In this document: in pieces, positions 22,665-38,278 of the stretch
Layout of the letters: each line of letters begins with the position of its first letter
Numbering within the stretch: the stretch's first letter is position 1
Assembly (NCBI GenBank): GCA_007695195.1
Contig: REEG01000141.1
Span: forward strand, 1-38,537
Reading direction: 5' to 3'
DNA: 38,537 nt
From: Gemmatimonadales bacterium
GTDB taxonomy: Bacteria; Gemmatimonadota; Gemmatimonadetes; Longimicrobiales; Gaopeijiaceae
Position numbers and translations under genes: made by a program
Notes under the pieces: generated by a model
What the model was told of the DNA's origin: nothing
What the model saw: the letters and a program-made list of their open reading frames with translations, nothing else
Database searches by the model: none

Positions 22665-23807
22665 TCAGAAGGTGGTGATCACCAGATCGGTGGGCCCTTC
22701 CCCGGCGGGGATGGAATCGGTCAGGGCGAACCCACTCCCCTCGTAGATGAAGACCTGCGCCGGAAGCCCCTCGCTGGCACTGCCGAAAAAGAGTTGATAG
22801 AGGCGACCCTCGCCATCGGTGCGGGCTCCGAAGGCTCCACGGCATCCGCCTGCGGCCAGGGGCGCGCAGACCGGGTCGGACGGCGACCGAACGAATGCAC
22901 CGGTCCGGGTATCCCACACCAACGTCCCGAAGAAGAAGCCGGAGATGTAGGCCAACCCCTCCTCATCGATGTGGATGGAGCCGGGACCCACCCCGAACCC
23001 GGGGACCACTTCCACCAGAGCGCCGGCCTGGGGATCGATGACGGCGAGGGATCCGGGATCGCTGAAGTTCTTGGTATTCACCACGTAGACGCGTCCGTCC
23101 GGACCCACGGCGGCTCCGGTGGGGTTGTTCCCACCCGTGCTCACCTCCGCCAGAATCTCCAGCGTGTTCGGATCGAGAATCGTCACCACCCCCTCACCGA
23201 TGGGTGCGAAGTTCTCGTCGAGATTCGACGAGATCACCGCCGCCCGATCTCCGGCCATGACGATTCGGGTGGGACGAGGCGCCACCCGAACCGTCTCGGT
23301 GATGGCGTCGCCACTCTGATCCAATCGGACCCGACCCACATCCCCGGTGCCCAGGTTCGCCAGAAGAACCGTATTGTCATCCACGAACACCGAGCCGGTG
23401 GCGTTCCCTGATTCGAAGAGGAAGAACCGCTCGATCCGCAGGCCTCGGGGGTCGATGAGGGCAGCGGAAGCGGCGTTGCCCAGGGGCACGAAGACCCGGT
23501 CCCCCTCCACCGACAGCCCCGTAGGCGTAACCGAGGCGCTGGCGCCCAGGGCGACGTTGCGCACCTCACTGGGATCTCCGAGCTGGAAGAGCCGAACAGC
23601 GTTTCCGGTGGAGTTGGTGACGATCCCGATGCGGGGATTGTCCGGCGTTCCGTCCAGGAACTCGGGCTCCACCGCAGGTGTGGTGGTGCTGTCCGAACAG
23701 GCCGAAGCCGTGAGAAGCAGGGCGGGAAGAACCGCCGCGACGAGGAGGTGCCCGGCGTGAAGCCGGTTGAACGGACTGCGAAACGAGAGACGAGACCACA
23801 CGTTCAT
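22665..23807 (-). CDS. Beta-propeller lipoprotein, candidate BtuG-like corrinoid-binding protein
   Basis: A 380-residue predicted lipoprotein (signal ends LLTASAC, Cys37). The rest is made of about seven YncE/NHL-like blades with repeated elements such as PTGLSVEGDRVFVPLGN, PTRIVMAGDRAAVISSN, PTGAAVGPDGRVYVVNT and PGSIHIDEEGLAYISGFFFG. The ATG at 23807 has GAGG 5 nt upstream. It follows the BtuB-like receptor by 26 nt and so lies in the same cobalamin-riboswitch unit. In Bacteroides, the surface beta-propeller lipoprotein BtuG caps BtuB and binds corrinoids very tightly. Architecture, position and regulation fit that role here, which I infer. Orthology to BtuG itself is not shown by what I can see, so the gene symbol is left empty. 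Confidence 0.85.
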   Translation of the reverse strand: MNVWSRLSFRSPFNRLHAGHLLVAAVLPALLLTASACSDSTTTPAVEPEFLDGTPDNPRIGIVTNSTGNAVRLFQLGDPSEVRNVALGASASVTPTGLSVEGDRVFVPLGNAASAALIDPRGLRIERFFLFESGNATGSVFVDDNTVLLANLGTGDVGRVRLDQSGDAITETVRVAPRPTRIVMAGDRAAVISSNLDENFAPIGEGVVTILDPNTLEILAEVSTGGNNPTGAAVGPDGRVYVVNTKNFSDPGSLAVIDPQAGALVEVVPGFGVGPGSIHIDEEGLAYISGFFFGTLVWDTRTGAFVRSPSDPVCAPLAAGGCRGAFGARTDGEGRLYQLFFGSASEGLPAQVFIYEGSGFALTDSIPAGEGPTDLVITTF

Positions 23808-23833
23808 GAAACCTCGAAAGCAAAAGGCATGAT

Positions 23834-26182
23834 TCAGGGATCCCGGGAGAGGTGGACGGAGATGGTCCACCAACGACCCGGGAGAGGATAATCGGCCAGG
23901 AAGCTGGCCCGGACGTCCAGCGCGTTCCGGAGTCCCAGATCGGCGCGGGCTTCCCAGCCACGGCCCTCGGGCAGGGGAACGGGGAAGGAGGCTGCCAGAT
24001 CGAGGGTGGTGAAGGGTTCGAGGGCGTTCAACTCCGACCCCGCCACGCTCCGTCGGGGGCCCTGCCGGCGCATGGTGCCCCGAAGATCCAGTCGCTCCCC
24101 CTGCCACCCCGCGGTGACGGAACCTTGCCATTCAGGACGGTAGACCACCTGACCTGAGAAAACGGGCCCGGTGTAGAGGACCTGGGTCCGTTCCAGGGTG
24201 CCCTCCACCCGGAGCCCTGCGGCGGGGATCCGGGTTCCGGTGGTGAAGGACCCACCCCGTCGGCGGACATCGTAGTTACTGGGACTCCAGATGAATCGAT
24301 GATCGGGGAACCAGATGATCATCCCGTCCACGTCGCCCTGGAAGAGAGTCCCCTGGATCTCCGGGCGGAGCGGGCCCAGGGATCCGGCCCAGCCGGCCTC
24401 CAGACTCCACTCGCCCCGGACCCGCTCCGGCCTCAACTCGGGGTTGGGCCGGACCAGAACGCCCTCCTGGAAGAAGAGGTCGGCCAGGGAGGGGGGGGAG
24501 AATCCGTGGGTCCAGCGAAGGCCGACTCTGGCTCCCCCGTTCAGGTACTCCAGACCCAGAGCGGGCGAAACCACCACCGACTCCACCAGATCGTGCACGT
24601 CGCCACGGACCACGGCAGAGGCCCGAAAGAGGCCCGGGATCGGGAACACCGGAAAGGAGGCTCCGGGAAGTTCACCGCTCGTCTCGATCCAGAGGCCCAC
24701 ATCACGCACTCGCTCCAGTGCCCCGTGGTCCAGGGAGGAGGCCCGCACGCGTCGGATCCCTCCGGAGAGCCCAGCCTGGATGGAGAGGGGACCCGACTCC
24801 CTCCAGAGCTCACCCCGCCAGTTCAGATCCCGGATCTCGGTAGTGGACCGGTACGGAGGGCCAAAGGGTGGAGAGGGATCGGAGTGGTGCGCCTCCTGCG
24901 AGTTGGCACCTCCAGACACTCGCCACCCGGCGGCAGTCGTCCCCGCCTCCCACGACCCGGAGACGCCTGCTCGGTCCTCATCGCGACGTCCCGTCAGCGA
25001 CGGCTGCACTACGGTCCCGGGACTCCCACGCCGGAGTCCTTCTCCGTGGAGTCGGATCCGCCCCTGGGAGGATGGACCGCTGCGGGTCAGCGCCAGGTGC
25101 CCCCGCACGGCCCGGGAACGAGCATTGAGGCGTCGGGCCTCACCACCACCCCGGAAATCGGGCACCGGATGAGGGAAATCTCCCCGTACCTCCTCCTGCT
25201 GCACCCGTCCGGAGAGTCGCCACCGCTCCACCCGCCCCAGGGTGTGGGAGGCGGCGAGGGACCCGGTCAGTTCTCCGAAAGCCCCTACAGTAGCCGAGGC
25301 TTCGGCACTGGACGGCCGGCGCGCCCCGGTCTCCACCAGGATCACACCGGCCAGGGCGCCGGCCCCGTAGCGGGCGGAGGCGGCCCCGGTCACGACGATC
25401 ACCCTGTCCACGTCGGACAGGTCGAGGCTCGCCAGATCGGCCTCGCCGGTCAGCCCGGCATTCAATGGCGAGCCGTCCACCAGAACCAGGACCTGATCCC
25501 CTGCCGATCCCCGAATGGACGGGGTTGCAGGTGCACCGGGTCCCCCCCTGCGTACCACCGTGACGCCCGGGACCGTCTCCACCAGATCCGCCACGGTACG
25601 CACCGTTGCGGAGGCGTCTTCAGGTCGGAGCACGATTCCCCCCGCCGACGTCCGCGCTCGTACACCATCCACCTGGAAGCCGGTCAACGCCACAGGGTCG
25701 GGCGTGAGAGTCACGGAGCTGCGACTGGTGAGGCCGTTCGCCGCCGTCACCTCAAAAACCTCATCCCGGTAGCCGATGTGGGTCACGCGAATGCGGTGGG
25801 AACCGGGGGAGAGACCCCGAAGCACAGCTCGTCCGTCCGGTCCGGAGGTGGTGGACAGCGGCGACCCCAGAACTTCCACCTGGACACCGGGAAGGGGAGC
25901 TACCCTGAGGGATTCGGCGGGGGCCGCGAGCCCGTCACTTGTGGTGGGGTCCCAAGGCCAAACGGGTCCATCCACCACCGCCGACACCCGAATCTCGACC
26001 ACAGACTGAAGCTGGGCGGTTCCGGCAGCGGGAAGGAAACCGTTGGCCAGAACCCCCATGAGAACGGGACCGGCCCAACAAACCAGGAACCCCAAGCCGC
26101 CCGGTCGACGGGAAAACGGACCCCGTCTACGGGTAGCTCGGGCCGGAAGGCCCGGAGGCGAATCAGATACAGAGTGAAACAC
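23834..26182 (-). CDS. btuB: BtuB-like TonB-dependent outer-membrane corrinoid receptor
   Basis: About 782 residues. A hydrophobic signal (GFLVCWAGPVLMGVLANGFL) ends near AAGTAQ. A carboxypeptidase-regulatory-like domain follows (VTHIGYRDEVFEV). The plug has ATVRTVADLVETVPGVTVVR, IRGSAGDQVLVLVDG and VVTGAASARYGAGALAGVIL. A 22-strand-type barrel follows. The B12 assignment rests on the riboswitch in its leader and on the neighbouring B12 genes. The start is uncertain. GTG 26182 is preferred because it lies 8 nt after AGAGGA in a hairpin matching that before btuF. ATG 26263 has a strong SD (GGGAGGGG) but would lengthen the signal region by 27 residues. Co-transcribed with the beta-propeller lipoprotein gene. 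Confidence 0.88.
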   Translation of the reverse strand: MFHSVSDSPPGLPARATRRRGPFSRRPGGLGFLVCWAGPVLMGVLANGFLPAAGTAQLQSVVEIRVSAVVDGPVWPWDPTTSDGLAAPAESLRVAPLPGVQVEVLGSPLSTTSGPDGRAVLRGLSPGSHRIRVTHIGYRDEVFEVTAANGLTSRSSVTLTPDPVALTGFQVDGVRARTSAGGIVLRPEDASATVRTVADLVETVPGVTVVRRGGPGAPATPSIRGSAGDQVLVLVDGSPLNAGLTGEADLASLDLSDVDRVIVVTGAASARYGAGALAGVILVETGARRPSSAEASATVGAFGELTGSLAASHTLGRVERWRLSGRVQQEEVRGDFPHPVPDFRGGGEARRLNARSRAVRGHLALTRSGPSSQGRIRLHGEGLRRGSPGTVVQPSLTGRRDEDRAGVSGSWEAGTTAAGWRVSGGANSQEAHHSDPSPPFGPPYRSTTEIRDLNWRGELWRESGPLSIQAGLSGGIRRVRASSLDHGALERVRDVGLWIETSGELPGASFPVFPIPGLFRASAVVRGDVHDLVESVVVSPALGLEYLNGGARVGLRWTHGFSPPSLADLFFQEGVLVRPNPELRPERVRGEWSLEAGWAGSLGPLRPEIQGTLFQGDVDGMIIWFPDHRFIWSPSNYDVRRRGGSFTTGTRIPAAGLRVEGTLERTQVLYTGPVFSGQVVYRPEWQGSVTAGWQGERLDLRGTMRRQGPRRSVAGSELNALEPFTTLDLAASFPVPLPEGRGWEARADLGLRNALDVRASFLADYPLPGRWWTISVHLSRDP

Positions 26183-26185
26183 CGT

Positions 26186-26211
26186 CCCCGTCCTCTTTCC
26201 GAAAGACGGGG
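26186..26211 (-). promoter_or_regulatory. Expression-platform hairpin with embedded SD (btuB leader)
   Basis: CCCCGTC pairs with GACGGGG (7 bp) around an inner TTTCGGAAAGAG. The SD-like AGAGGA (26196-26191) lies in the loop and 3' arm, 8 nt before the GTG at 26182. A hairpin of the same form precedes btuF. Together they suggest B12-dependent hiding of the ribosome site. Confidence 0.6.
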
Positions 26212-26299
26212 AAGAGAACAGGATGCACAGTCTCCCGGCCGGAAGCCGGAAGGGTCCGCGCATGTGCCCATTCCCCTCCCGCGAGGGGTGTATGGAAGA

Positions 26300-26460
26300 G
26301 GGAACCGAGGAGGTCTCCTGGCTCGAGGCAGCACCGTTCGCCTTCCCGGGATGAACTCCCAGTGGCATTCAGAACGGGCATTCCGGAAACGATGAACGTT
26401 TCCGCACCTCTGACAGTGGCGGGGCCGCGCCGGATTCGCACCGGTCTTCCGTGGTCCCCG
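26300..26460 (-). promoter_or_regulatory. Cobalamin riboswitch aptamer upstream of btuB
   Basis: On the minus strand the conserved core is GGTGCGAATCCGGCGCGG followed by CCCCGCCACTGT, then GCCACTGGGA ... CCCGGGAAGGC. The B12 box AGCCAGGAGACC is at 26323-26312. P1 can be drawn between GGGGACC (26459-26453) and GGTTCCC (26306-26300): 7 pairs, one of them G-U. These are the signatures of adenosylcobalamin-type cobalamin riboswitches. Binding of the cofactor should switch off the receptor and beta-propeller genes, probably at translation through the hairpin at 26186-26211. Confidence 0.95.
26407..26452 (-). repeat. 46-nt inverted repeat, copy 1 (riboswitch core)
   Basis: This segment, read on the minus strand, matches 27488-27533 on the plus strand with 44 of 46 identities. 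Both copies are the conserved core of the two cobalamin riboswitches. They flank pduX in opposite orientation. Confidence 0.85.
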
Positions 26461-26482
26461 GGTCCCATCGAACTTGAGATTC

Positions 26483-27463
26483 ATGTCTAAACCGAAACCC
26501 GAAGAGGCGCAAGATGCCTGGGGTGCATCCTGCGGCAGCGGCGGCGAATTCTTCCAGGGCTTCGTCCATGGGCGCTGGCTACAGGTGGCCTGCCCCGTGA
26601 ACCGGTGGAGATGGGCGCGCATTGCCCGCCCTGAGGGGCAACCGGGGACAGACTCAGGCTCCGCTCCCGACCTCCCCCTCAAAGTCAAACGGCTTCATGA
26701 GCGTTTCACGGAAAGGGGGATCCTGCCTGCGCAGGTGGGCCGGACCTGGATCCGGCTGGGTGGCGACGAACTCCTCCCCGGTTCAGGAATGGGAAGCAGC
26801 ACGGCCGACCTGGGGGCTCTCATCGGGGCCGTCCATGCGTGGACACGCAGGGGAGAGATCGACCCCTCTGCTGCTGCGGCCTGGGCTCTCGAGGTGGAAC
26901 CCACCAATGGCACCTTCTATCGGGAACTGACTCTCTTTGATCACCGGAGCGGGAGTTTTGCGGAGCCGTGGGGGGCGGCCCCGGAGCTCGATCTGGTGGC
27001 CGTTACCCAGGGAGCGCTGGACACGGTGGACTTCAATCGCCGGTTGGATCGCCGACTCCGACGCGGGGAACTTACCCGCGATCTTCTGCGCAGGTGGGCC
27101 GAAACCCTGGCCCTCCTGCGACGGGGTCTAGACACCGGTGACCTGGAGGCGGTGGGCCGCGCCTCGACGCAGAGCGCCCGGCTGAGTCGTGCCCTGGCCC
27201 CACGCCCCCTGCTCGAGGAGGTGGAGGCCACCGCTCGGGACGTGGGCGCCCTCGGGGTCCTGGTGGGACACAGCGGGACCGCCACCGGGATCCTCCTGGA
27301 TCCAGCCCGCTCTGCGGCGCCGGAAGGAGTGGCCGAGGGACTCCGGCGGCGGCTGCCCGAAGCCCGGCCCATCCATCTGAGGACGGGAGCCGGTGGCATC
27401 CGGTGGGGCACCGTCCCTCCCTCGACCCCATTGCCCCCACCTCAGAGGGGCCCTATGGTCTGA
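26483..27463 (+). CDS. pduX: L-threonine kinase PduX (GHMP kinase) for cobalamin side chain
   Basis: A 326-residue GHMP-superfamily kinase. PduX phosphorylates free L-threonine to L-threonine O-3-phosphate, the substrate of threonine-phosphate decarboxylase, to make the aminopropanol linker of B12. The N-terminus has CGSGGEFFQGFVHGRW and VACPVN, typical of the PduX group. The GHMP ATP loop is LPGSGMGSSTADL (about 98-110), and the C-terminal GHMP motif is GVLVGHSGTATGILLD. The ATG at 26483 is chosen from the conserved N-terminus; its SD is weak, and a TTG at 26474 is possible. It lies between two riboswitches, with the btuB leader antisense to its upstream region. Its promoter would have to lie in the opposite-strand riboswitch DNA. 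The downstream steps (CobD, CbiB) are in the neighbouring operon. Confidence 0.9.
   Translation: MSKPKPEEAQDAWGASCGSGGEFFQGFVHGRWLQVACPVNRWRWARIARPEGQPGTDSGSAPDLPLKVKRLHERFTERGILPAQVGRTWIRLGGDELLPGSGMGSSTADLGALIGAVHAWTRRGEIDPSAAAAWALEVEPTNGTFYRELTLFDHRSGSFAEPWGAAPELDLVAVTQGALDTVDFNRRLDRRLRRGELTRDLLRRWAETLALLRRGLDTGDLEAVGRASTQSARLSRALAPRPLLEEVEATARDVGALGVLVGHSGTATGILLDPARSAAPEGVAEGLRRRLPEARPIHLRTGAGGIRWGTVPPSTPLPPPQRGPMV
26484..26512 (-). promoter_or_regulatory. Candidate promoter of the btuB unit, inside the 5' end of pduX
   Basis: On the minus strand TTGCGC (26512-26507), a 17-nt spacer and TAGACA (26489-26484) would start RNA near 26477, just before riboswitch stem P1 (26459). Both boxes are imperfect. 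The position agrees with the expected leader start. It overlaps the first codons of pduX. Confidence 0.35.
27431..27459 (+). promoter_or_regulatory. Candidate promoter of the btuF-cobU operon, inside the 3' end of pduX
   Basis: TTGCCC (27431-27436), a 17-nt spacer and TATGGT (27454-27459) match the sigma-70 consensus at 4 of 6 positions in each box. Transcription would start near 27466, directly before riboswitch stem P1 at 27474. Read-through from pduX is an alternative. Confidence 0.5.
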
Positions 27464-27473
27464 GAACGAAATA

Positions 27474-27636
27474 TCGGAAGAGGCCGTACGGAAGACCGGT
27501 GTGAATCCGGCGCGGCCCCGCCACTGTGAGAGGCTCCGGGAGCGATCCCGGATCGATCTGTCCCTTCGTGCCACTGGGCTCCGGCCCGGGAAGGCGGACA
27601 CGATTGCCTCAAGCCAGGAGACGAGGTCTCGTCCGA
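27474..27636 (+). promoter_or_regulatory. Cobalamin riboswitch aptamer upstream of btuF operon
   Basis: The core is GGTGTGAATCCGGCGCGG followed by CCCCGCCACTGT, then GCCACTGGGCTCCGGCCCGG with GGAAGGC. The B12 box AGCCAGGAGACGAGG is at 27612-27626. P1 pairs TCGGAAGAGGCC (27474-27485) with GGTCTCGTCCGA (27625-27636): 10 Watson-Crick pairs, one G-U and one mismatch. It should repress the uptake and assembly operon when adenosylcobalamin is plentiful. Confidence 0.95.
27488..27533 (+). repeat. 46-nt inverted repeat, copy 2 (riboswitch core)
   Basis: The reverse-orientation partner of 26407-26452, differing at two positions (C/T in the GAATCC block and C/G after CACTGT). The two copies enclose about 1.0 kb containing pduX. 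Confidence 0.85.
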
Positions 27637-27752: not shown

Positions 27753-28850
27753 ATGTCGTCTCCCCATCCCGCCCGCCGGACATCGGTCCGCCAGGCGCCG
27801 TCCGGACGGACGGTGAGCGTTCTTGCGTTGGTCGTCCTGCTTGCCCTGTTCACCACGGGGTGCGGCGAAGCAGAGCTCCGATCCTCGGAAGCGGACCCGG
27901 AGTCGGTGCTCTCATTGGAATCGGCTCCTTCGGGCGCCGAAGGCACCGAACGACCTCCTCCGCCCGATTCCCGTTCTCTCCAGGTCATGGACGACCAGGG
28001 GCAGAACGTCCATCTCGAAGGTCCCGCCCGGCGGGTGGTCTCCATCATCCCGTCCATGACCGAGTTGGTGGTGGCCCTGGATGCCCGGGAGGCGCTGGTG
28101 GCCCGGACCCGCTACGACCGGGATCCCTCCCTGGCCTACCTGCCGTCGCTGGGGGGGACCATCCGTCCGAATCTGGAGGCCATCGCCGACCTTCACCCCG
28201 ACCTGGTCATCGCCTGGAGTGACGAGGAGCACTCCCCCCTCAGCCGACGTCTCAGGGACATGGGGATCCCGGTCTACCACGCCTCGGTGCAGCGGATCGA
28301 AGACATTCACCGGCACGCGCAGCGGTTGGGACACCTCCTGGGCCGGGACGCCGAAGCCACCGGCTTTCTGAGTGACCTGGAGGCTCGTCTCACGGCGGTG
28401 CGTGAAACCCCTCATCCCGGCACCCCACCCACCGTCCTGTACATCGTGTGGCACGATCCACCGCAGACCGCTGGACCGGGGACCTTCCTGGACGAGATCA
28501 TCGAGATCGCCGGCGGAAGAAATGTGTTCCACGACGCCCGAAGCTCATGGCCCCAGATCTCCATGGAAGAGATCGTGAGGCGCGACCCGGATGTGGTGGT
28601 GGCGGCGACACGTCACGACGGTGAACCGGACGACGGAGGATGGCTCCGCCGACCGGGATGGCAGGAACTCACCGCCGTTCAGGGAGGTCGAACCCTGGCC
28701 GTCAACGCAGATCTCTTCAATCGCCCCGGACCCGGGGTAGCCGAAGCCGCCGAGATTCTCCACCAGTACCTGGCAGGAGTCACCGAAGCGAGGGCCGGTG
28801 GTTCCGAGTTGGACGAAGCGAACCGGACCGAGCCAGGGACCGTTCCTTGA
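27753..28850 (+). CDS. btuF: BtuF-like corrinoid-binding lipoprotein of the B12 ABC transporter
   Basis: A 365-residue periplasmic solute-binding lipoprotein (lipobox TTGC, Cys37). After a hydrophilic linker of about 45 residues, the class III binding-protein fold begins. It contains RRVVSIIPSMTELVVALDA, TRYDRDP, PNLEAIADLHPDLVIAW, the long helix region SVQRIEDIHRHAQRLGHLLG and the C-terminal GRTLAVNADLFNRPGPGVAE. These fit BtuF/FecB-like corrinoid or siderophore binders. Riboswitch control and the adjoining permease genes point to corrinoids. It should deliver corrinoid from BtuB to BtuCD. Its ATG follows the RBS hairpin, and its stop overlaps the btuC TTG start. Confidence 0.92.
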   Translation: MSSPHPARRTSVRQAPSGRTVSVLALVVLLALFTTGCGEAELRSSEADPESVLSLESAPSGAEGTERPPPPDSRSLQVMDDQGQNVHLEGPARRVVSIIPSMTELVVALDAREALVARTRYDRDPSLAYLPSLGGTIRPNLEAIADLHPDLVIAWSDEEHSPLSRRLRDMGIPVYHASVQRIEDIHRHAQRLGHLLGRDAEATGFLSDLEARLTAVRETPHPGTPPTVLYIVWHDPPQTAGPGTFLDEIIEIAGGRNVFHDARSSWPQISMEEIVRRDPDVVVAATRHDGEPDDGGWLRRPGWQELTAVQGGRTLAVNADLFNRPGPGVAEAAEILHQYLAGVTEARAGGSELDEANRTEPGTVP

Positions 28851-29842
28851 CCGGCGTGGCACCGCGGCTGGGGACCCTCCTCGTGCTCCTTACCGGGACT
28901 GCCCTGGTGAGTGTCTCCATCGGTGCGGCCCGCATCCCAGTCCTGGAGATCATCCCTGCTCTGCTGGGCCAGATCGAGGGAACGAGTCGCTCGATCCTGG
29001 TCCACCTCCGCCTCCCTCGGGTGGTTCTGGCCATCGGAGTGGGGGGAGCGCTGGCGCTGGCGGGAACCACCTTCCAGGCCCTCCTCCGGAACCCCCTGGC
29101 GGAGCCCTATGTGCTGGGCATCTCCGGTGGGGCCGCCGTGGGTGCGGTGGGAGTCCTGGTGGCCGGGCTCGGCGCCCGCCTCCCCTGGGCCGTGCCACTG
29201 GGTGCCTTCGTGGGAGCGCTTCTGGCCATGTTCCTGGTTCTTCGGGTCGCCCGGGCCGCCGGGGGGAGCCGGTTGGATTCGCGGGTTCTCATCCTGGCAG
29301 GGGTAGTGGTGGGCGCCTTCTTCAATGCCGTTATCCTGCTCCTCCTCTCCATCGCGGACGTGGAGTCCTTCCGCTCGGCCATCTTCTGGATGATGGGTAA
29401 TCTTTCAGGGGCTACCTGGAGCGGAAACGCTCTGCTGGCGCTCTACATCCTCCCCGGCACCGCTCTCCTGCTGGCGTTGGCCCGGCCCTTCGACCTCCTG
29501 GCCCGAGGCGAGGATGTGGCCTTTCACCTCGGTGTGCGGGTGGAACGGACCAAGCTCCTGGCCTACGTCGTGGCTTCCCTGCTGGTGGCGGCAGCGGTGG
29601 CTTTCGCCGGGGTCATCGGCTTTGTGGGGCTTATCGTCCCCCACGCCCTGCGGCTCCTGTGGGGCCCCGGTCACCGGCTACTCCTTCCGGCCTCCTTCCT
29701 GGCGGGCGCCGCCTTCCTCCTCATGGCCGACACGGTGGCACGGGTGGTGATCGCTCCGGCGGAACTGCCGACGGGGGTGATCACCGCTCTGGCCGGCGTC
29801 CCCCTCTTCGTCTTCCTCCTGGTGCGACGAGGGGTGCAGTGA
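28847..29842 (+). CDS. btuC: BtuC-like inner-membrane permease of the B12 ABC transporter
   Basis: A 331-residue FecCD/BtuC-family permease with about 10 membrane helices. Family motifs include LRLPRVVLAIGVGGALALAG with TTFQALLRNPLAEPYVLGIS, the helix segment SFRSAIFWMMGNLSGATW and the C-terminal VGLIVPHALRLLWGPGHR followed by helix 10. It forms the corrinoid channel with BtuD and receives substrate from BtuF. The TTG at 28847 overlaps the btuF TGA (TTGA); a GTG at 28856 would shorten the protein by 3 residues. Its stop overlaps the btuD ATG by one base. Confidence 0.93.
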   Translation: MTGVAPRLGTLLVLLTGTALVSVSIGAARIPVLEIIPALLGQIEGTSRSILVHLRLPRVVLAIGVGGALALAGTTFQALLRNPLAEPYVLGISGGAAVGAVGVLVAGLGARLPWAVPLGAFVGALLAMFLVLRVARAAGGSRLDSRVLILAGVVVGAFFNAVILLLLSIADVESFRSAIFWMMGNLSGATWSGNALLALYILPGTALLLALARPFDLLARGEDVAFHLGVRVERTKLLAYVVASLLVAAAVAFAGVIGFVGLIVPHALRLLWGPGHRLLLPASFLAGAAFLLMADTVARVVIAPAELPTGVITALAGVPLFVFLLVRRGVQ

Positions 29843-30654
29843 TGTCGGGCGCCGGACTGGCGGGGGTGGACCTGTCCTTTCGATACGCGCCGCAGGGGCC
29901 ATGGGCCGTCCGGGACGTGTCCGCCGCCGTGGAGCCGGGCGTCGTCCTGGCCGTACTGGGCCCCAACGGCTCCGGGAAATCGTCACTTCTCCGCCTCCTC
30001 TCCGGCGCGCTTGAGCCGGAGGTGGGAAGGGTCTCCCTGGGTGACGTGCCCCTCTCGCGGATCCCGGACCGTGATCGGGCCCGACGGATCGGCGTCGTGC
30101 CCCAGAGCGAACCCTCGCCCTTCCCCATCTCGGTCCGGGACCTGGTGGCCATGGGGCGATACCCGCACCTGGGGACCTGGCGGGAGCCGGCTCGCCGGGA
30201 CCACGAGGCCATGGAGCGGGCCATGCACCGATGCTCCGTGGAGCACTTCGCAGATCGGGATGTGGGAACGCTCTCCGGCGGGGAGGCCCAACGGGTTCGG
30301 GTGGCACGGGCGCTGGCCCAGGAGCCCGAGATCCTGCTCCTGGATGAGCCGGCGGCAGGATTGGACCTCCGGCACCAGATGGAGCTCCACACCCTTCTGC
30401 GCTCCCTGGCCGGGGAGGGCATGGGGATCCTTCTCATCACCCACGATCTGAACCTGGCATCCCGCTTCGCCCACCGGCTCCTTCTTCTGAACGAGGGTCA
30501 CGCCACAGCGAAGGGAACGCCCGGCGACGTGGTCCGGGACACCCTCCTGGAGGGGGTCTATCAGTGGCCGGTCCGGGTTGTGGAGCACCCGGGACCCGGA
30601 CCCGACGTTCGAGCACCCCAGGCCATCCCTCTGGCCCGGAGAGTCGTGGAATGA
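29842..30654 (+). CDS. btuD: BtuD-like ATP-binding subunit of the B12 ABC transporter
   Basis: A 270-residue ABC ATPase. Walker A is GPNGSGKS (40-47), the Q-loop Gln is in VVPQSE, the signature is LSGGE (144-148), Walker B is ILLLDEP (164-170) and the switch His is in LLITHDLNLA. FPISVRDLVAMGRYPHLG is typical of FecE/BtuD-type iron-complex and B12 importers. It powers BtuC. The start at 29842 shares a base with the btuC stop (TGATG). Its stop overlaps the cobS ATG. Confidence 0.94.
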   Translation: MSGAGLAGVDLSFRYAPQGPWAVRDVSAAVEPGVVLAVLGPNGSGKSSLLRLLSGALEPEVGRVSLGDVPLSRIPDRDRARRIGVVPQSEPSPFPISVRDLVAMGRYPHLGTWREPARRDHEAMERAMHRCSVEHFADRDVGTLSGGEAQRVRVARALAQEPEILLLDEPAAGLDLRHQMELHTLLRSLAGEGMGILLITHDLNLASRFAHRLLLLNEGHATAKGTPGDVVRDTLLEGVYQWPVRVVEHPGPGPDVRAPQAIPLARRVVE

Positions 30655-31436
30655 AGGGGCTCGCCGCCGCCATCCGCTTCCTCACCATCATCCCGGTCCC
30701 GTCCGGTTCAGCAGGACGGTTGACCATGACTCCCTGGTTCCCGGTGGCGGGTGTGGTCGTAGGCCTCCCGGTCCTGGCCACCCTGGCGCTGAGCGGGCTG
30801 ATTCCCCGGTCGGAGGGTGGGGGGATACCGCTTGTGTTCCTGCCGGCGGTGGGAGCCCTTCTGGTGTGGACGGCCATCACCGGGGGACTCCACGAGGATG
30901 GTTGGGCGGACTGCGCCGACGCCGCCCTGGCTCCGGTGGACCAGGATCGACGGCGCGAGATCCTGAAGGATCCCCGGGTCGGGGTCCATGGAGCCACCGC
31001 CCTCATCCTCCTCCTCCTGGTTCGATTCTCGGCGCTGGCCTCTTTCGCGGCTCTGCCCCCGGGGGCGCGGGAGTTGGGCCTGATCCTGGTGCCCCCCATG
31101 GTCGGCCGGACGGCTATGGTGATCTCCCTCCGAGCGGCGGAGCCCCTCACCGCAGGGGGACTTGGCACCGCTCTGGCCGCAGGGGCCCGGCCCGGCCTCG
31201 CCTCCGTCCTCACCCTCGTCATGGTGACCGGCACCGTGATGTGGGTGGGTCCCCACTGGCTCGGTCCCGCTGCGCTGGCGGTGGCGGGAGCGGCATTCGT
31301 TGGACTCGGCATTGCCTTGTTCCTGTCCCGTCGCTTTGGCGGGCTCTCCGGCGATGGCCACGGCGCCACGGGCATCGGCACCGAGACGGCGACGCTGGTG
31401 GGGCTGGCCCTGGCGCTGGGAGGGGCCGCGCCATGA
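30651..31436 (+). CDS. cobS: Adenosylcobinamide-GDP ribazoletransferase CobS
   Basis: A 261-residue membrane enzyme joining adenosylcobinamide-GDP to alpha-ribazole (or its phosphate) to give adenosylcobalamin (or its phosphate). The N-terminus has IRFLTIIPVP, typical of CobS. The acidic catalytic motif GGLHEDGWADCADA is at about 83-96. DPRVGVHGATALILLLLVRF follows, and the late motif GGLSGDGHGATGIGTETATL is near the C-terminus. About six membrane segments are seen. Starts at ATG 30651 overlapping the btuD TGA; its own stop overlaps the cbiB start. Confidence 0.95.
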   Translation: MKGLAAAIRFLTIIPVPSGSAGRLTMTPWFPVAGVVVGLPVLATLALSGLIPRSEGGGIPLVFLPAVGALLVWTAITGGLHEDGWADCADAALAPVDQDRRREILKDPRVGVHGATALILLLLVRFSALASFAALPPGARELGLILVPPMVGRTAMVISLRAAEPLTAGGLGTALAAGARPGLASVLTLVMVTGTVMWVGPHWLGPAALAVAGAAFVGLGIALFLSRRFGGLSGDGHGATGIGTETATLVGLALALGGAAP

Positions 31437-32416
31437 CGTCAAGCGAACACACGGTGGTCTCCCGGAAGGCCGGCCAGGCGGAAGGCCCCTCACAGTCGCC
31501 AAGGGGGTCGGGTCGGGAAGCCGGCTCGAAACGGGGGGTGGCCCTCATGGCCTGTCTGCTGGCGGACCTGGTCCTGGGGGAACCGTCGCCGCACCCCGTC
31601 CGGGGGATCGGGGCTCTCCTGAACGCGGGAAAACGCCGCCGCCGTGCCACCTCTCCCTGGGGAGCCTTCCTGGAGGGCCTCCTGGTGGTGGGAGGCACCG
31701 CAGCGCTGGTGGGGGCAGGTGCGGCCGGCGTCCGCCGTCTGGCGCAGCCGGTTCCGGCGCTGGAGGGCATCCTCCTGAAACCGGCGTTGGCCCTGGGGGC
31801 CCTCCTCGAGGCCGGAGACGCCGTTCATGGCGCACTGGAGGCCGGTGATCTGGACGAGGCCCGGCGACTCACTGCCTGGCACCTGGTGAGTCGAGACACG
31901 GCCCACCTCACCGCTTCCCAGGTGAGCTCAGCCGTGGTGGAGTCGCTCAGTGAGAATCTGGTGGATTCAGTGGTGGCCCCTGCCGGATATTTCCTCCTGG
32001 GAGGGCTCCCGGCGGCCTGGATCTATCGCACCGTGAACACGGCCGACGCCCTCTTCGGCTACCGCTCCGAGGAATTCGAATGGTTCGGGAAGCCCGCCGC
32101 CCGCGCCGATGATCTTCTGAATCTGGCGCCGGCCCGATGGACCGGAGCCGCCATCCTCCTGGCGGCCGGTCGTCCGGACCTCCTCCCCCGCTTGCCTCGA
32201 GAGGCCCGGCGGGCCCAAGGGCCCAACGCAGGCTGGCCCATGGCCGCGGCGGCCCTGGCTCTGGGCGTGCGGCTCGAGAAGCCCGGAAGCTATGTCCTGA
32301 ACGAGCGGGGGCGTCCTGCGAACCCCGGTGATATTCCACGAGCCACCGGTCTCCTCCGGCGTGCCACGGCCGTGGCGCTGGCCGGGCTCGTGACAACGCT
32401 GGGGCATGGTCCATGA
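31433..32416 (+). CDS. cbiB: Adenosylcobinamide-phosphate synthase CbiB
   Basis: A 327-residue membrane protein (CbiB; CobD in Pseudomonas naming) attaching aminopropanol or its phosphate to adenosylcobyric acid. The family start LADLVLGEPSPHPVRGIGAL is preceded by about 40 extra hydrophilic residues. Further hallmarks are VSRDTAHLTASQVSSAVVES followed by LSENLVDSVVAP, and YRTVNTADALFGYRS with FGKPAARADDLLNLAPARWT. The ATG at 31433 overlaps the cobS stop. An internal start nearer LMACLLADLV cannot be excluded. The substrate amine phosphate should come from the next gene product. Confidence 0.94.
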   Translation: MTSSEHTVVSRKAGQAEGPSQSPRGSGREAGSKRGVALMACLLADLVLGEPSPHPVRGIGALLNAGKRRRRATSPWGAFLEGLLVVGGTAALVGAGAAGVRRLAQPVPALEGILLKPALALGALLEAGDAVHGALEAGDLDEARRLTAWHLVSRDTAHLTASQVSSAVVESLSENLVDSVVAPAGYFLLGGLPAAWIYRTVNTADALFGYRSEEFEWFGKPAARADDLLNLAPARWTGAAILLAAGRPDLLPRLPREARRAQGPNAGWPMAAAALALGVRLEKPGSYVLNERGRPANPGDIPRATGLLRRATAVALAGLVTTLGHGP

Positions 32417-33702
32417 CGGACCGCTGGCTCCCACCCGATCCGGCATTCCCAGGCGAGCTCCCTCCCATGGATCCCCATGGCGGGACCCGCCCCGGCGATC
32501 TCCTGCCTGTAGGCGGCGGGGACGGATCTGGCCCCAGGGTGCACCAGGAGCACTCCCGCCACCGCCCCCGGCTCGTGGACCTGAGCTCCAATGTGCTTCC
32601 CTTCCCTCCGGATCCCCAGGTTCTGAGTGCCGTCCGCGCCGCTCCGTTGGAACACTATCCGGACCCCGATGCCGTGGAGGCCCGGAGGGCTTTGGCCCAT
32701 CACTGGGACATCCATGAGGGCCGGATTCTTCTGGCACCGGGCGCGTCGGAACTCATCCACCGCATCGCCCTGGCGTATCTGGCACCGGGCGATTCAGTCC
32801 TCATCGTAGGCTCTACCTTCGGGGAGTACCGTCGGGCGAGCCTTCTCCGGGGTGCGGGTGTCATGGAGGTGGGCCGGGGTCATCCACACCTCCCCAGTGT
32901 CGAAGAGGTGGTGGACTACCTGAGGAAGGGGCAATCCACCGACACGAGCATCCGTCTGGTCTTCCTGTGCACCCCCAACAACCCCACCGGAGACGCCTGG
33001 TCAGAGACGGAGGTGGAAACGCTGGCCGCCTCCCTCCCCTCGCGCGCCCTCCTGGTCCTGGACGAGTCGTATCGCTCCATCTCCTCGGGAGGTCTCGTGC
33101 CCCCCCACGCCCCGGAGAATCCACGGATCCTCCACCTTCGCTCCCTCACCAAGGATCTCTGCCTCCCTGGACTCCGGGTAGCGGTGGCCATCGGCCCTCC
33201 CCCGGTCTTGCAGCTTCTGCACCGGATCGCGCCGCCCTGGCTGGTCTCGACCCCGGCTCAAGCCGCAGTGGTCGCAGCCGTCCGGCCGGCTGTCCGACGG
33301 CGCCTGGGAGATCGGGTGCGCCGCACCTGGGAGGCCCGGGAGCAGATGGCTCGGGCGCTCCGGACCCGAGGGTTCCGGGTGGAATCCTCGGTGGTGAGCT
33401 ACCTCCTGTGGACGCCGTGGCCCCAGGGCAACTCGGGAAATGGGCGCAGCTCCCGGAGGCGAACCGCCTCGGAGACCGGAAACACGACCCCTCCGGATCA
33501 CCCCTCAGCCGCCCACGAGTCCATCACCCGCCCCCACCTCGCCACACAGTGGGTCCAGGAGTTGGAGTCCCGGGACGTTCGGGTCCGGGATGCCTCGTCC
33601 TTCGGGCTCCCGGGTTGGCTCCGGGTCGGGGTGGGGACGCCCCCGGAGAACGAACGCTTCCTGGAGGTGCTGGACCGAATAGCCTCGGAGGGTGGGTGGT
33701 GA
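32413..33702 (+). CDS. cobD: L-threonine-phosphate decarboxylase (CobD of Salmonella naming), PLP enzyme
   Basis: A 429-residue fold-type I PLP enzyme. Salmonella CobD decarboxylates L-threonine O-3-phosphate to (R)-1-amino-2-propanol phosphate. The PLP Lys is Lys247 in RSLTKDLCLPGLR, a sequence closely matching CobD. Other marks are LSSNVLPFPP (about 58), PNNPTG (188-193) and LVLDESY (215-221). There are about 50 extra N-terminal residues, and a hydrophilic insertion at about 335-370 (WPQGNSGNGRSSRRRT start) is longer than expected. Histidinol-phosphate aminotransferase is the nearest alternative, but the operon and the pduX neighbour favour CobD. It starts at ATG 32413 overlapping the cbiB stop. 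Confidence 0.9.
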   Translation: MTDRWLPPDPAFPGELPPMDPHGGTRPGDLLPVGGGDGSGPRVHQEHSRHRPRLVDLSSNVLPFPPDPQVLSAVRAAPLEHYPDPDAVEARRALAHHWDIHEGRILLAPGASELIHRIALAYLAPGDSVLIVGSTFGEYRRASLLRGAGVMEVGRGHPHLPSVEEVVDYLRKGQSTDTSIRLVFLCTPNNPTGDAWSETEVETLAASLPSRALLVLDESYRSISSGGLVPPHAPENPRILHLRSLTKDLCLPGLRVAVAIGPPPVLQLLHRIAPPWLVSTPAQAAVVAAVRPAVRRRLGDRVRRTWEAREQMARALRTRGFRVESSVVSYLLWTPWPQGNSGNGRSSRRRTASETGNTTPPDHPSAAHESITRPHLATQWVQELESRDVRVRDASSFGLPGWLRVGVGTPPENERFLEVLDRIASEGGW

Positions 33703-34256
33703 ACGTCCTCCTCATCCGTCACGGAGCCACCGAACTGAATGAGGCCAGGAGGTTTCAGGGGTGGAGTGACGTACCCCTGACCACCCGGGGTCTGTCACAG
33801 GTGCGGAACCTCATGGAAAGCCTGGAGCCCGTCCCCTCGGCGTCGGTCATCCACGTCAGCGATCTCCGGCGAGCCCGGGAGACGGCGGATGTCCTCTTCC
33901 CGGACCGGGTTCATCGACTCGATGAACGGCTCCGGGAACTCCACTTCGGGTGTTTCGAGGGTCTGACGGCCGAAGAGGGTCAGGCTCGTCACCCGGAGGC
34001 GTGGGCCCGCTGGATGGAAGACGCGGACCGGTACGCGCCCCCTGGAGGCGAGACCCTCGCAGCCTTCCGGACCCGAATCGACGAATGGGTGGACGAGGTG
34101 CTTCCGTCGACGCCGGAGTCCCTGGTGGTTGTAGCCCACGGTGGCACCCTGGGCTACCTCTGCCAGCGCCTCGAAGCCCATGCCCTTTCTCCGCTCCCAC
34201 CCCTCCCCTCCCCCGGTGGGGCGATCCAACTCACCCTGCATCCCAAGGCCCTATGA
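33699..34256 (+). CDS. cobC: Histidine phosphatase, probable alpha-ribazole phosphatase CobC
   Basis: A 185-residue histidine-phosphatase-superfamily enzyme. The catalytic His is in LLIRHGAT at the N-terminus, the second His is in VVAHGGTLGYL, and LRELHFGCFEGLTAEE is a family segment. In the B12 pathway CobC removes phosphate from alpha-ribazole phosphate or adenosylcobalamin phosphate. The fold alone does not show this substrate, which is inferred from the operon. It starts at GTG 33699 overlapping the cobD TGA, and its stop overlaps the cobO ATG. Confidence 0.9.
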   Translation: MNVLLIRHGATELNEARRFQGWSDVPLTTRGLSQVRNLMESLEPVPSASVIHVSDLRRARETADVLFPDRVHRLDERLRELHFGCFEGLTAEEGQARHPEAWARWMEDADRYAPPGGETLAAFRTRIDEWVDEVLPSTPESLVVVAHGGTLGYLCQRLEAHALSPLPPLPSPGGAIQLTLHPKAL

Positions 34257-34891
34257 GCGAACATGACAAGGCGGACCCCCGGGAACCTGTGGATTCCAGC
34301 CCCCGACACCCCAGCGCGCCCCGCCCCAAGCAGCGCACGCCCGGCCCGTATCCCGTACCCCCCAGGGAGCGCCGCACCGGCCTGGTCCTCCTCCACACCG
34401 GGAACGGCAAGGGGAAGACCACAGCGGCGCTGGGCATCCTCCTTCGCGCCGCCGGTCGGGACATGAAGGTGGGGATGCTCCAGTTTCTGAAGACCACCGG
34501 GGTTGATCGAGGCGAACACATAGGAGCCCGTCGCCTGGGGATCGAGATCATCCCCCTGGGTTCGGGATTCACCTGGCTCAGCGAACGCATCGAAGAAGAT
34601 CGGGAGCTGGCCCGCTCCTGCTGGGCTCGGTGCCGGGAGGCGCTGGAATCCGAAGCGTACGACATTCTCATCTTCGATGAGCTCACCTACGCCCTCAGCT
34701 ACGGATGGTTGGACCACGAGGACGTGCTCCCGGTCATTGCCGCTCGCCCCCCCGGCACACATGTGGTCATCACCGGCCGTAACGCCACTCCCGAGCTCGT
34801 GGAATTCGCGGATCTCGTCACGGAGATGCGCGAGGTCAAGCACCCCTACCGCACCCGGGGTATCGGTGCCCAACCGGGACTCGAGCTTTGA
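34253..34891 (+). CDS. cobO: Cob(I)alamin adenosyltransferase (CobA/BtuR/CobO type)
   Basis: A 212-residue corrinoid adenosyltransferase of the BtuR/CobO type. It transfers the adenosyl group of ATP to the cobalt of corrinoids. After about 40 hydrophilic residues, the P-loop GNGKGKTT lies at 50-57. VGMLQFLKTTGVDRGEHIGA, the acid motif LIFDELTYALSYGWL and VVITGRNATPELVEFADLVT follow, as does TEMREVKHPY, all typical of the family. The ATG at 34253 overlaps the cobC stop. The TGA overlaps the cobT TTG. Confidence 0.95.
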   Translation: MSEHDKADPREPVDSSPRHPSAPRPKQRTPGPYPVPPRERRTGLVLLHTGNGKGKTTAALGILLRAAGRDMKVGMLQFLKTTGVDRGEHIGARRLGIEIIPLGSGFTWLSERIEEDRELARSCWARCREALESEAYDILIFDELTYALSYGWLDHEDVLPVIAARPPGTHVVITGRNATPELVEFADLVTEMREVKHPYRTRGIGAQPGLEL

Positions 34892-35967
34892 CCGCGGCAC
34901 AGGCCGTGGGGGCCGAACAGTCCGTGGGGGATCCCGCCCGCATCCGGGCCCATCTGGACAATCTGACCAAGCCACCCGGGAGTCTTGGCCACCTGGAAGA
35001 GTTGGCTCTACGTCTGGGGACACTCCTGGGGGATCCGCCCCCGCCCCTCTCGCCCCGCTGCGTCCTGGTCATGGCCGGCGACCACGGGGTTACCCGCCGT
35101 GGCGTCAGCGCCTACCCCTCCCAGGTAACCCAGCTAATGTGCCGGAACATGGCCGCCGGTGGAGCCGCCATCAACGCTCTGGCCGGGAGTGTGGACGCCC
35201 GGGTCGTGGTGGTGGACCTGGGTGTGGACGCCGGAGAGCCGCTGGGAGAGGGAATCCTCCACCGGCGCATCCGCCGGGGAACCCGGGACCTCTCCCGGGA
35301 GCCGGCCCTCACCGATGACGAGGTGGACCGCGCCCTCGAGGCAGGCGCCCGGGTCCTGGAGGAATTGAGCCCGCGACCCGCCGTTCTGGTCCTGGGAGAG
35401 ATGGGAATCGGGAACACCACCTCAGCCTCGGCGCTGGCCGCGGCGCTCCTCCGATGCCCGGCCGTGGAGATGGTGGGGCCCGGGACTGGGATTCCGCCTG
35501 AAGCGCAGCAGGAGAAGGTACGGGTCGTCGAGGCTGGACTCCGGCGGATCCGGAATGGTGGTGCCGGGCAGGACCACGCTTCGTTGGCCCGGAGGGCTCT
35601 GGCGGAGGTGGGAGGCCTGGAAATCGCGGGGCTGGTGGGCGCAGCGCTGGCGGCCCGCCGCCTCCGGATCCCCGTGGTCCTGGACGGCTTCATCTCCAGC
35701 GTGGCGGGACTGGTGGCCAAACACCTCAACCCCCACCTGGGCCCCTGGCTCTTTGCATCGCACCGTTCAGCCGAGCCGGGGCACGACCGGGTCCTGGACG
35801 GTCTGGGCCTCCGCCCTCTCCTGGACCTGGGGTTCCGGCTGGGCGAGGGGACAGGCGGGGTTCTGGCTCTCCCCATTCTCGAGGGGGCCGGGGCCATCCT
35901 CCGGGAGATGGCCACCTTCGAATCGGCCGGGATCCCGGGTCCAGCCGAGGGGGATTCGGCGCCGTGA
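34888..35967 (+). CDS. cobT: Nicotinate-nucleotide:dimethylbenzimidazole phosphoribosyltransferase CobT
   Basis: A 359-residue CobT. It activates the lower-ligand base to alpha-ribazole phosphate using nicotinate mononucleotide. The hallmark LTKPPGSLGHLEELA is at 26-40. VMAGDHGVTRRGVSAYP follows, then LGEMGIGNTTSASALAAALL (169-188), and the catalytic Glu is Glu320 in RLGEGTGG. The TTG at 34888 overlaps the cobO stop (TTGA). No bluB or other dimethylbenzimidazole-making gene is visible in the window. The base may be made elsewhere or taken from outside. Confidence 0.95.
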   Translation: MTAAQAVGAEQSVGDPARIRAHLDNLTKPPGSLGHLEELALRLGTLLGDPPPPLSPRCVLVMAGDHGVTRRGVSAYPSQVTQLMCRNMAAGGAAINALAGSVDARVVVVDLGVDAGEPLGEGILHRRIRRGTRDLSREPALTDDEVDRALEAGARVLEELSPRPAVLVLGEMGIGNTTSASALAAALLRCPAVEMVGPGTGIPPEAQQEKVRVVEAGLRRIRNGGAGQDHASLARRALAEVGGLEIAGLVGAALAARRLRIPVVLDGFISSVAGLVAKHLNPHLGPWLFASHRSAEPGHDRVLDGLGLRPLLDLGFRLGEGTGGVLALPILEGAGAILREMATFESAGIPGPAEGDSAP

Positions 35968-37511
35968 GCGAGCTGGCTCCGGTGCTCATGGTACAGGGCA
36001 CCACCTCCGGCGCGGGGAAATCCCTCCTCACCGCAGCCCTCTGCCGGATTCTGGCTCGGCGGGGCATCCGGATCGCGCCCTTCAAGGCGCAGAACATGTC
36101 CAACAACGCCGCCGTCACAGTGGAGGGAGGGGAGATCGGACGGGCGCAGGCCCTTCAGGCCAGGGCGGCCGGGGTCCAACCGGAGGTCCGCATGAACCCG
36201 GTGCTCCTGAAGCCGCTGGCCGATACCCGCTCCGAGGTGGTCCTCCTGGGCCGGGGTGCACCGGATGTGAGCCGCCTCCCCTGGCGAAAGCGGCGCCCCC
36301 ACCTCTGGCCCCACGTCACCGAGTCCCTGGACTCACTGCGTCGCGACTATGATCTGGTGGTGGTGGAAGGCGCCGGCAGCCCCGCCGAGATCAACCTCCG
36401 GGACTCGGATATCGTGAACATGGCCGTGGCCAGGCACAGCGGGGCCGCCGTTCTCCTGGTCACCGACATCGACCGGGGAGGAGCCTTCGCCACCCTCTTC
36501 GGAACGTGGGCACTGCTGGAAGAGGAAGACCGGGCCCTCATCAAGGGATTCGTGTTGAACCGGTTCCGCGGGGATCCCGGGCTCCTGGCGCCCGCCCCCC
36601 GGATCCTCGAGGAACGCACCGGTGTCCCCACCGTGGGGATCGTGCCCTGGATGCGCCACCTCCTCCCGGAAGAAGATGGCGGACCACGCCTGGCGACGGC
36701 CCCCCGGCCCGGTGCAGGGTCCAAACGGGTAGGGGCGATCCGCTTTCCACACATCTCCAACGTAGACGACCTGGATCCGCTCCGTGCCGAACCGGACGTC
36801 CAGGTGGTCTGGGTGTCGGAGGTGCGACACCTCTTCGACCTGGACGGCGTGATCCTTCCAGGGTCACGGAATACCCTGGCGGATCTGGCCTGGATGGCCG
36901 AGAGCGGGCTGGGCGCCGGGATCCTGGCCCTTCATCGGTCCCATGTCCCCATCCTGGGACTCTGCGGAGGCTACCAGATGATGGGGAGCCTGGTCAGGGA
37001 TCCCCATGGAGTGGAGGAGGGGGGAGAGCGGCCCGGACTGGGGATTCTCCCTCTGGAAACCACACTGGCTCCGGAGAAGGAAACGGTCCTCACTCGCGCC
37101 CACATCGCCTCGGGGGATCACCCCCTCATGGAGCTCATCGGTCATGAGGTCGAGGGCTATGAGATCCACCATGGCCATACCCGGGTGGTAGCAGACGACC
37201 ACCCCATCGTCGACTCCGGGGACAGGAAGCGGATTCCAGCCCCCCGCCCCCAGGCGGTCCCCTGGCTGGTCCGAGCAGGCAACGAGGCTCTGGGCCACGC
37301 ACAGGGATCGGCCTGGGGGTGCTACCTCCACGGGCTTCTGGAGAATCCCGAGGTGAGGGCAGGATGGCTCAGGGAAGTGGGCGCAACACCCGACGGGTTG
37401 ACCGAGCCCTGGGCCCGCCGCCTGGACCGGGAACTCGATCAGGTCGCCCATCAGGTAGAGGCGGGGCTCGATCTTCCCCGCATCCTGGATTGGGTGGGCT
37501 TCCGTCCATGA
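35964..37511 (+). CDS. cobQ: Cobyric acid synthase CobQ/CbiP
   Basis: A 515-residue glutamine-dependent amidotransferase amidating adenosylcobyrinic acid a,c-diamide at four positions to give cobyric acid. The N-terminal synthetase domain has the P-loop GTTSGAGKS (12-20), then PFKAQNMSNNA and VVEGAGSPAEINLRDSDIVN. The C-terminal type I glutaminase has the nucleophile Cys334 in GLCGGYQMMG and the His in EGYEIHHGHT (about 402). It starts at GTG 35964, overlapping the cobT stop. It is the only gene here that acts before cobyric acid. Confidence 0.95.
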   Translation: MSELAPVLMVQGTTSGAGKSLLTAALCRILARRGIRIAPFKAQNMSNNAAVTVEGGEIGRAQALQARAAGVQPEVRMNPVLLKPLADTRSEVVLLGRGAPDVSRLPWRKRRPHLWPHVTESLDSLRRDYDLVVVEGAGSPAEINLRDSDIVNMAVARHSGAAVLLVTDIDRGGAFATLFGTWALLEEEDRALIKGFVLNRFRGDPGLLAPAPRILEERTGVPTVGIVPWMRHLLPEEDGGPRLATAPRPGAGSKRVGAIRFPHISNVDDLDPLRAEPDVQVVWVSEVRHLFDLDGVILPGSRNTLADLAWMAESGLGAGILALHRSHVPILGLCGGYQMMGSLVRDPHGVEEGGERPGLGILPLETTLAPEKETVLTRAHIASGDHPLMELIGHEVEGYEIHHGHTRVVADDHPIVDSGDRKRIPAPRPQAVPWLVRAGNEALGHAQGSAWGCYLHGLLENPEVRAGWLREVGATPDGLTEPWARRLDRELDQVAHQVEAGLDLPRILDWVGFRP

Positions 37512-38278
37512 TCTCCCAGTTCCCTCCCCTCTCGCCCATCCTTCGCCCGCCCTGGATGACGGTGGAGCTGGGCGGGACCCTGCAGGTGCTGAGCTGGGCC
37601 CTGGTGGGCGGGGGTCTGACCACGGCCCGCCGTCTGGTATGGAGAGAGGTGCGGAATCGCGACCTCCCCACCAGCGTGAACCCCCGGCGTTGGCTGGAAG
37701 AAGCGGTCGCAGTAGAGGGTCTGTCCGACGCCGTGGCGCTGGTCACATCGCATCCCCTGGCCCGACATCGGGTTGCCACCGCCCAGGTCGAAGGGTTCGC
37801 CGTTGATGTGGTGGCAACGGTGGGACTGGGGAACGCCGAGCGGGTGGGTACACGGGTCATGCCCCCCGTAGAACCACCTGCATCGTTCAGTGGCCCCTTC
37901 ATCCGCTCCCCCGCGCCACGGTCTCCGGAAGACGGACCGGGGTTTCACGCCGGAACCATCAACCTGGGCGTTCGGATCCGATGGGGCCTCACCCCCTCGG
38001 CGCTCACAGAGGCCCTCTCCCTTGTGGCCTCGGCTCGAACGGCGGCCATCCTGGACGCCGGGATTCTCTTGAACACCCCCGCCGGCGTTCCACCGTGGGC
38101 TACCGGAACAGGTACCGACTGCATCGTCGTGGCAGCCCCAGCCGGTTCACAGGATTACTGCGGCTTGCACACACCGCTGGGTGAGGCGCTGGGCCGAGCC
38201 GTCTACGAGGCGGTTCACAAGGGAGCCGTCCACTGGAGGGATGGCCAGATCCCGGGAAAGGGAGAGACTCCATCATGA
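37508..38278 (+). CDS. cbiZ: Adenosylcobinamide amidohydrolase CbiZ
   Basis: A 256-residue single-domain CbiZ. It cleaves the aminopropanol amide of adenosylcobinamide, and in some bacteria of pseudocobalamin-type corrinoids, to release cobyric acid for rebuilding. Recognised by ATGTGTDCIVVAAPA and by YCGLHTPLGEALGRAVYEAV near the C-terminus, with TINLGVRI in the middle. ATG 37508 overlaps the cobQ stop, and its stop overlaps the cobU ATG. Its product is the substrate for CbiB in the same operon, so the cell can remodel imported corrinoids. Confidence 0.92.
   Translation: MISQFPPLSPILRPPWMTVELGGTLQVLSWALVGGGLTTARRLVWREVRNRDLPTSVNPRRWLEEAVAVEGLSDAVALVTSHPLARHRVATAQVEGFAVDVVATVGLGNAERVGTRVMPPVEPPASFSGPFIRSPAPRSPEDGPGFHAGTINLGVRIRWGLTPSALTEALSLVASARTAAILDAGILLNTPAGVPPWATGTGTDCIVVAAPAGSQDYCGLHTPLGEALGRAVYEAVHKGAVHWRDGQIPGKGETPS

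Follow-up and report, generated by a model that had tools for sequence, protein, structure and literature searches.

A BtuB-BtuG-like receptor and propeller lipoprotein pair behind a cobalamin riboswitch in Gemmatimonadota

We analysed a 38,537-nt stretch of DNA, here called the window, from a Gemmatimonadales bacterium (contig REEG01000141.1, assembly GCA_007695195.1; all positions are on the forward strand). Our subject is a minus-strand transcription unit in which a cobalamin riboswitch precedes the gene for a TonB-dependent receptor and, after a gap of 26 nt (23808-23833), the gene for a lipoprotein (Table 1). A preliminary description of this DNA had noted these three elements and had likened the two proteins to the BtuB-BtuG system of Bacteroides, in which a beta-propeller lipoprotein of very high corrinoid affinity forms a stable complex with a B12 receptor and acts as its lid. 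All three were confirmed: the riboswitch covers the full RF00174 model (1-189 of 189) at 74.2 bits, above the gathering cut-off of 31.5 bits, the receptor was recognized by Pfam, and the spacing was taken from the sequence itself. Between the two genes lies an eight-codon open reading frame (23804-23830, minus strand) whose final ATGA overlaps the lipoprotein start, possibly providing translational coupling.

The receptor has Plug (1.6e-20), TonB barrel (1.3e-15) and N-terminal CarboxypepD_reg (1.1e-10) domains according to Pfam, and its best NCBIfam model is TonB-B12, matched partially at 77.6 bits against an equivalog cut-off of 599.7. The first in-frame ATG after the riboswitch is at 26263, with a signal peptide-like stretch about 50 residues further in; this ATG is not necessarily the true start, which probably lies inside the interval given in Table 1. 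When the AlphaFold2 (AF2) model of the receptor (predicted local distance difference test score, pLDDT, 76) was compared with PDB structures using Foldseek, ranks 1-17 were all BtuB, headed by the BtuB1 chain from the BtuB1G1 complex.

In the AF2 model of the lipoprotein, 28 strands make up seven blades of four strands each, and the C-terminal strand completes blade 1 (mean pLDDT 85, predicted template modelling score 0.82). The model bears out the seven-bladed propeller that had been anticipated from the translation. A Foldseek search of 350,542 PDB chains with this propeller returned BtuG at each of ranks 1-6, and 16 of the 18 top matches were BtuG1, BtuG2, BtuG3 or the B. uniformis BtuG. 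At rank 7 came 1l0q, a YVTN propeller that trailed the top match by about one order of magnitude; for the predicted model, the lead of BtuG over 1l0q is thus clear without being large. In profile searches of the PDB, a profile of 23 lipoprotein sequences matched 1l0q first and BtuG1 next (E ~1e-12 to 1e-11). A 51-sequence profile aligned in register with BtuG1 over ~264 residues (E 1.9e-13) and still placed 1l0q above it (4e-24); hhalign assigned the comparison of the lipoprotein with BtuG1 a probability of 95%. The BtuG1 fragment itself matches BtuG2 and BtuG3 at only about 1e-7 to 1e-10, indicating that BtuG is a fast-diverging family.

The mature lipoprotein (344 aa, 35.4 kDa) is acidic, with an isoelectric point of 4.25 and a net charge of -21, and 59 of 60 relatives share its lipidation residue, Cys37. 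At least two acidic residues follow this cysteine in 28 of 59 family members compared with 4 of 25 BtuF proteins (Fisher p 0.007), which is a loose tendency only. Most family members have a conserved cysteine pair at alignment positions 344 and 371 that this protein lacks; it carries a different pair, C314 and C322 (residues 314-322; 22842-22868), that is common to its closest relatives.

We gathered homologues by lipoprotein similarity alone, blind to their neighbours, so the gene-order result is not circular. The family is present in 124 of 395 Gemmatimonadota genomes (E 1e-10 or better). At loci from the window's own order with enough upstream sequence, the receptor was directly upstream of the lipoprotein in 15 of 15, and every one of these had a cobalamin riboswitch on the same strand, ahead of the receptor or of an inserted btuFCD. 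A phylum-wide search yielded 32 further loci, three of them from the window's own family; a riboswitch was found in 27, and the remaining five adjoin BtuFCD or a BtuB-like receptor. Four weak partial matches served as a control, and none had a riboswitch, BtuFCD or a BtuB-like receptor alongside. As the relatives have approximately one cobalamin riboswitch per genome, the association between riboswitch and lipoprotein is beyond chance, and recurrence of the pair behind such riboswitches, which the preliminary description had put forward as a point to check, was borne out.

Some loci depart from this arrangement. At one (L047, 7538-8993), the riboswitch stands 306 nt ahead of the lipoprotein with no receptor between, and two others (L021, 2066-4311; L022, 8832-11077) have tandem propeller lipoproteins after one receptor, one of the window type and one divergent. 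At some loci of family f4 (L063, L065, L070, L071, L076, L078 and L080), the lipoprotein comes directly after BtuCD or BtuFCD, with no receptor detected between them; in these cases it may work with a receptor encoded elsewhere, or its partner receptor may be too divergent to detect.

We also ran the test in reverse, with twenty riboswitch loci from genomes without the lipoprotein (lid-less genomes). A receptor lay downstream of the riboswitch in 18 of the 20, while the lipoprotein was found in none, even at E 0.01, and a rough scan of these loci revealed no clear lipoprotein gene after the receptor. In a receptor tree, the lid gene accompanied 37 of 37 receptors in one clade and 4 of 24 in the other. 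A profile of the lid-associated clade matched BtuB1 better (E 1.7e-42) than E. coli BtuB (8.8e-32), whereas a profile of the lid-less clade from the same phylum matched E. coli BtuB at 3e-82, with BtuB1 far behind at 1.7e-19. The window receptor belongs to a supported clade of 11, and the partner lipoproteins of these 11 group in just the same way (100/99); the clade spans families f1, f3, f5 and f7, while genomes of the same genus are placed outside it in both trees. Because the clades match in the two gene trees, receptor and lid seem to have been inherited, or to have moved, together as a unit, which lends indirect support to a complex of the two. Two kinds of BtuB thus occur behind these riboswitches, even within one family: an E. 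coli-like, lid-less kind (L097-L115) and a Bacteroides-like, lidded kind.

Table 1. Cobalamin-related features of the window
Feature	Position	Strand	Evidence
BtuG-like seven-bladed beta-propeller lipoprotein, 380 aa	22665..23807	-	AF2 model, Foldseek
BtuB-like TonB-dependent receptor	23834..26263	-	Pfam, NCBIfam, PDB profile search, AF2 + Foldseek
Cobalamin riboswitch ahead of the receptor-lipoprotein transcription unit	26291..26477	-	Rfam RF00174, 74.2 bits, E 1.2e-16
GHMP kinase	26516..27463	+	Pfam GHMP kinase domains
Second cobalamin riboswitch, precedes the BtuFCD and cobamide salvage operon	27490..27622	+	Rfam RF00174, 70.1 bits
BtuF-, BtuC- and BtuD-like corrinoid ATP-binding cassette (ABC) transporter; BtuF start approximate	27816..30654	+	Pfam Peripla_BP_2, FecCD, ABC_tran
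Late cobamide assembly/remodelling genes CobS, CbiB, CobD, CobC, CobO, CobT, CbiP/CobQ, CbiZ	30648..38278	+	

The second riboswitch, which BtuFCD and late cobamide genes follow, had been overlooked in the preliminary description; with it, two oppositely facing B12 switches, for uptake and repair, lie within one short region. The transporter proteins match BtuF-, BtuC- and BtuD-type NCBIfam models under their cut-offs. CbiZ, the last gene of the run, was assigned by Pfam (E 4e-43), and the other late cobamide genes were identified by eye from their translations; such genes recur next to the receptor-lipoprotein pair in several relatives. From its context, the GHMP kinase is probably an L-threonine kinase (PduX type) of the nucleotide-loop pathway. 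The kinase start on the plus strand and the 5' end of the riboswitch on the minus strand almost touch (26474-26540), which means that the promoter driving the riboswitch transcript must lie within the beginning of the kinase gene or span it. The genome, which is 96% complete, encodes MetH, and a search of it found neither CbiC nor CobI/CbiL, both markers of corrin-ring synthesis; the organism is therefore probably a corrinoid scavenger, living on scavenged corrinoids. A published survey reported that part of the Gemmatimonadota has late genes and btuB, with ring synthesis not found (PMC10581226).

We consider it probable that the receptor and lipoprotein form a BtuB-BtuG-like machine that scavenges corrinoids at the cell surface. 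With Bacteroides BtuB-BtuG structures the first matches for both proteins in fold searches, and with the pair recurring across the phylum, our results support the proposal in the preliminary description that this design exists outside Bacteroides. At low intracellular cobalamin, the riboswitch, judging from its class, would permit expression of the transcript. The lipoprotein, which Cys37 would anchor in the outer membrane, would capture corrinoids with its acidic propeller and cover its partner BtuB-like receptor like a lid; the receptor would take over the corrinoid and import it with TonB energy. Transport through the inner membrane would then fall to BtuF-BtuCD, with repair or remodelling of the corrinoid by the CobS/CbiB/CobD/CobC/CobO/CobT/CbiP/CbiZ set.

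Several results weigh against this reading. As a single sequence, the lipoprotein scarcely matches any family; it scores 15 bits for DUF5074 (PF16819), the Pfam family of BtuG, where the cut-off is 27.2 bits and the BtuG1 fragment passes with 48.4 bits; a DUF5074 search of the organism's own genome gave no match. As this test fails, the lipoprotein is, by formal family membership, a divergent relative. It lacks the export signal of Bacteroidota lipoproteins (the sequence reads CSDSTTTP), although that consensus is one for Bacteroidota and may not be this phylum's. Conservation is not focused on one face of the propeller (top versus bottom loops, p 0.10). Finally, eight of the 32 further loci showed no receptor ahead of the lipoprotein, and seven of these eight have BtuCD or BtuFCD directly upstream instead, so the fixed pair is not universal.

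The most serious alternative, which we regard as possible but rather unlikely, keeps the job and changes the origin: a generic YVTN/YncE-type propeller lipoprotein would have been recruited beside BtuB and have converged on the BtuG design. The DUF5074 shortfall fits this account, as do the higher profile scores of 1l0q, an archaeal protein, and its closeness to BtuG in the Foldseek ranking. Independent recruitment, which the preliminary description had also raised, is nevertheless not favoured, because the neighbouring receptor is specifically Bacteroides-like and that of lid-less relatives is E. coli-like, a contrast that shared ancestry of the pair explains, and because the lipoprotein matches BtuG1 in register over ~264 residues. 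The strongest indication that Bacteroides shares the pair, and not just its job, is this difference between receptors; the receptor speaks for common descent with BtuBG, and the propeller alone is compatible with either origin.

An improbable alternative is that the propeller faces the periplasm, passing corrinoid from the receptor to BtuF or acting there as some other accessory, rather than forming a surface lid. E. coli YncE, encoded beside PqqU/YncD, is just such a periplasmic propeller adjoining a receptor gene, and both the missing Bacteroidota-type export signal and the loci that place the lipoprotein right after BtuFCD are consistent with this location; inheritance of the lipoprotein with one receptor kind in particular, and a fold nearer to BtuG than to YncE (Foldseek ranks 1-6 versus 31), argue for the lid. 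We think it very unlikely that the protein is an enzyme or a binder of another ligand, such as pyrroloquinoline quinone (PQQ) or heme, whose link to B12 uptake is one of shared regulation only. Among NCBIfam models it indeed matches a PQQ-associated propeller model best, far under the cut-off (34 versus 287 bits), and its best single-sequence PDB match is NirF (E 6.5e-5), but its neighbours throughout the phylum are cobalamin riboswitches, BtuB, BtuFCD and cobamide genes, and at L047 the riboswitch stands directly before it. We rejected a PQQ, heme or NirF-like function on this gene context.

Among characterized systems, B. thetaiotaomicron BtuB1-BtuG1 (PDB 8blw), BtuB2G2 and BtuB3G3 are encoded, as here, at riboswitch loci in which a BtuB-type receptor adjoins a seven-bladed lipoprotein, and the Bacteroides propellers are likewise acidic. 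Compared with them, identity is only ~18%, the Gemmatimonadota lipoprotein has no BtuH-like extension, in addition to lacking the family score and export signal discussed above, and the receptor has its additional CarboxypepD_reg domain. E. coli BtuB, also a TonB-dependent B12 receptor, represents the kind that lid-less Gemmatimonadota have behind their riboswitches; it has no lipoprotein partner, and the window receptor falls in the other clade. The xenosiderophore pair XusA-XusB of Bacteroides (PDB 9gbc, 9hqe) similarly combines a receptor with a propeller-like surface lipoprotein, but its ligand is a siderophore and its structural rank is lower (28 for both partners). In E. coli PqqU/YncD and YncE, a receptor gene again adjoins a YncE-type propeller gene; that system, however, takes up PQQ, and YncE ranks under all BtuG chains listed.

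BtuG has been reported solely from Bacteroidetes, with gut competition proposed as one possible reason (PMC6143338), and BtuB-BtuG lids have been characterized structurally in Bacteroides (PMC10404256). Another B12-binding family, DUF4465, was recently shown in several phyla (PMC13398666). Our literature search, which covered few subscription journals or preprints, found no publication linking BtuG with Gemmatimonadota. We lean, with some reserve, towards the view that the lidded BtuB-BtuG design is no speciality of Bacteroidota, and that in Gemmatimonadota a homologous pair forms a unit that is either old or has been exchanged repeatedly, with close relatives having swapped lidded (Bacteroides-like) for lid-less (E. 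coli-like) receptors, or the reverse, behind one and the same riboswitch. Such relatives would provide a natural experiment, differing in whether the receptor behind that riboswitch has a lid, and their divergent lids could help to locate the residues that bind corrinoids as opposed to those that bind the receptor. If this view is correct, a phylum-wide counterpart in the mostly uncultured Gemmatimonadota would make lid-assisted vitamin capture a wider answer to B12 scarcity.

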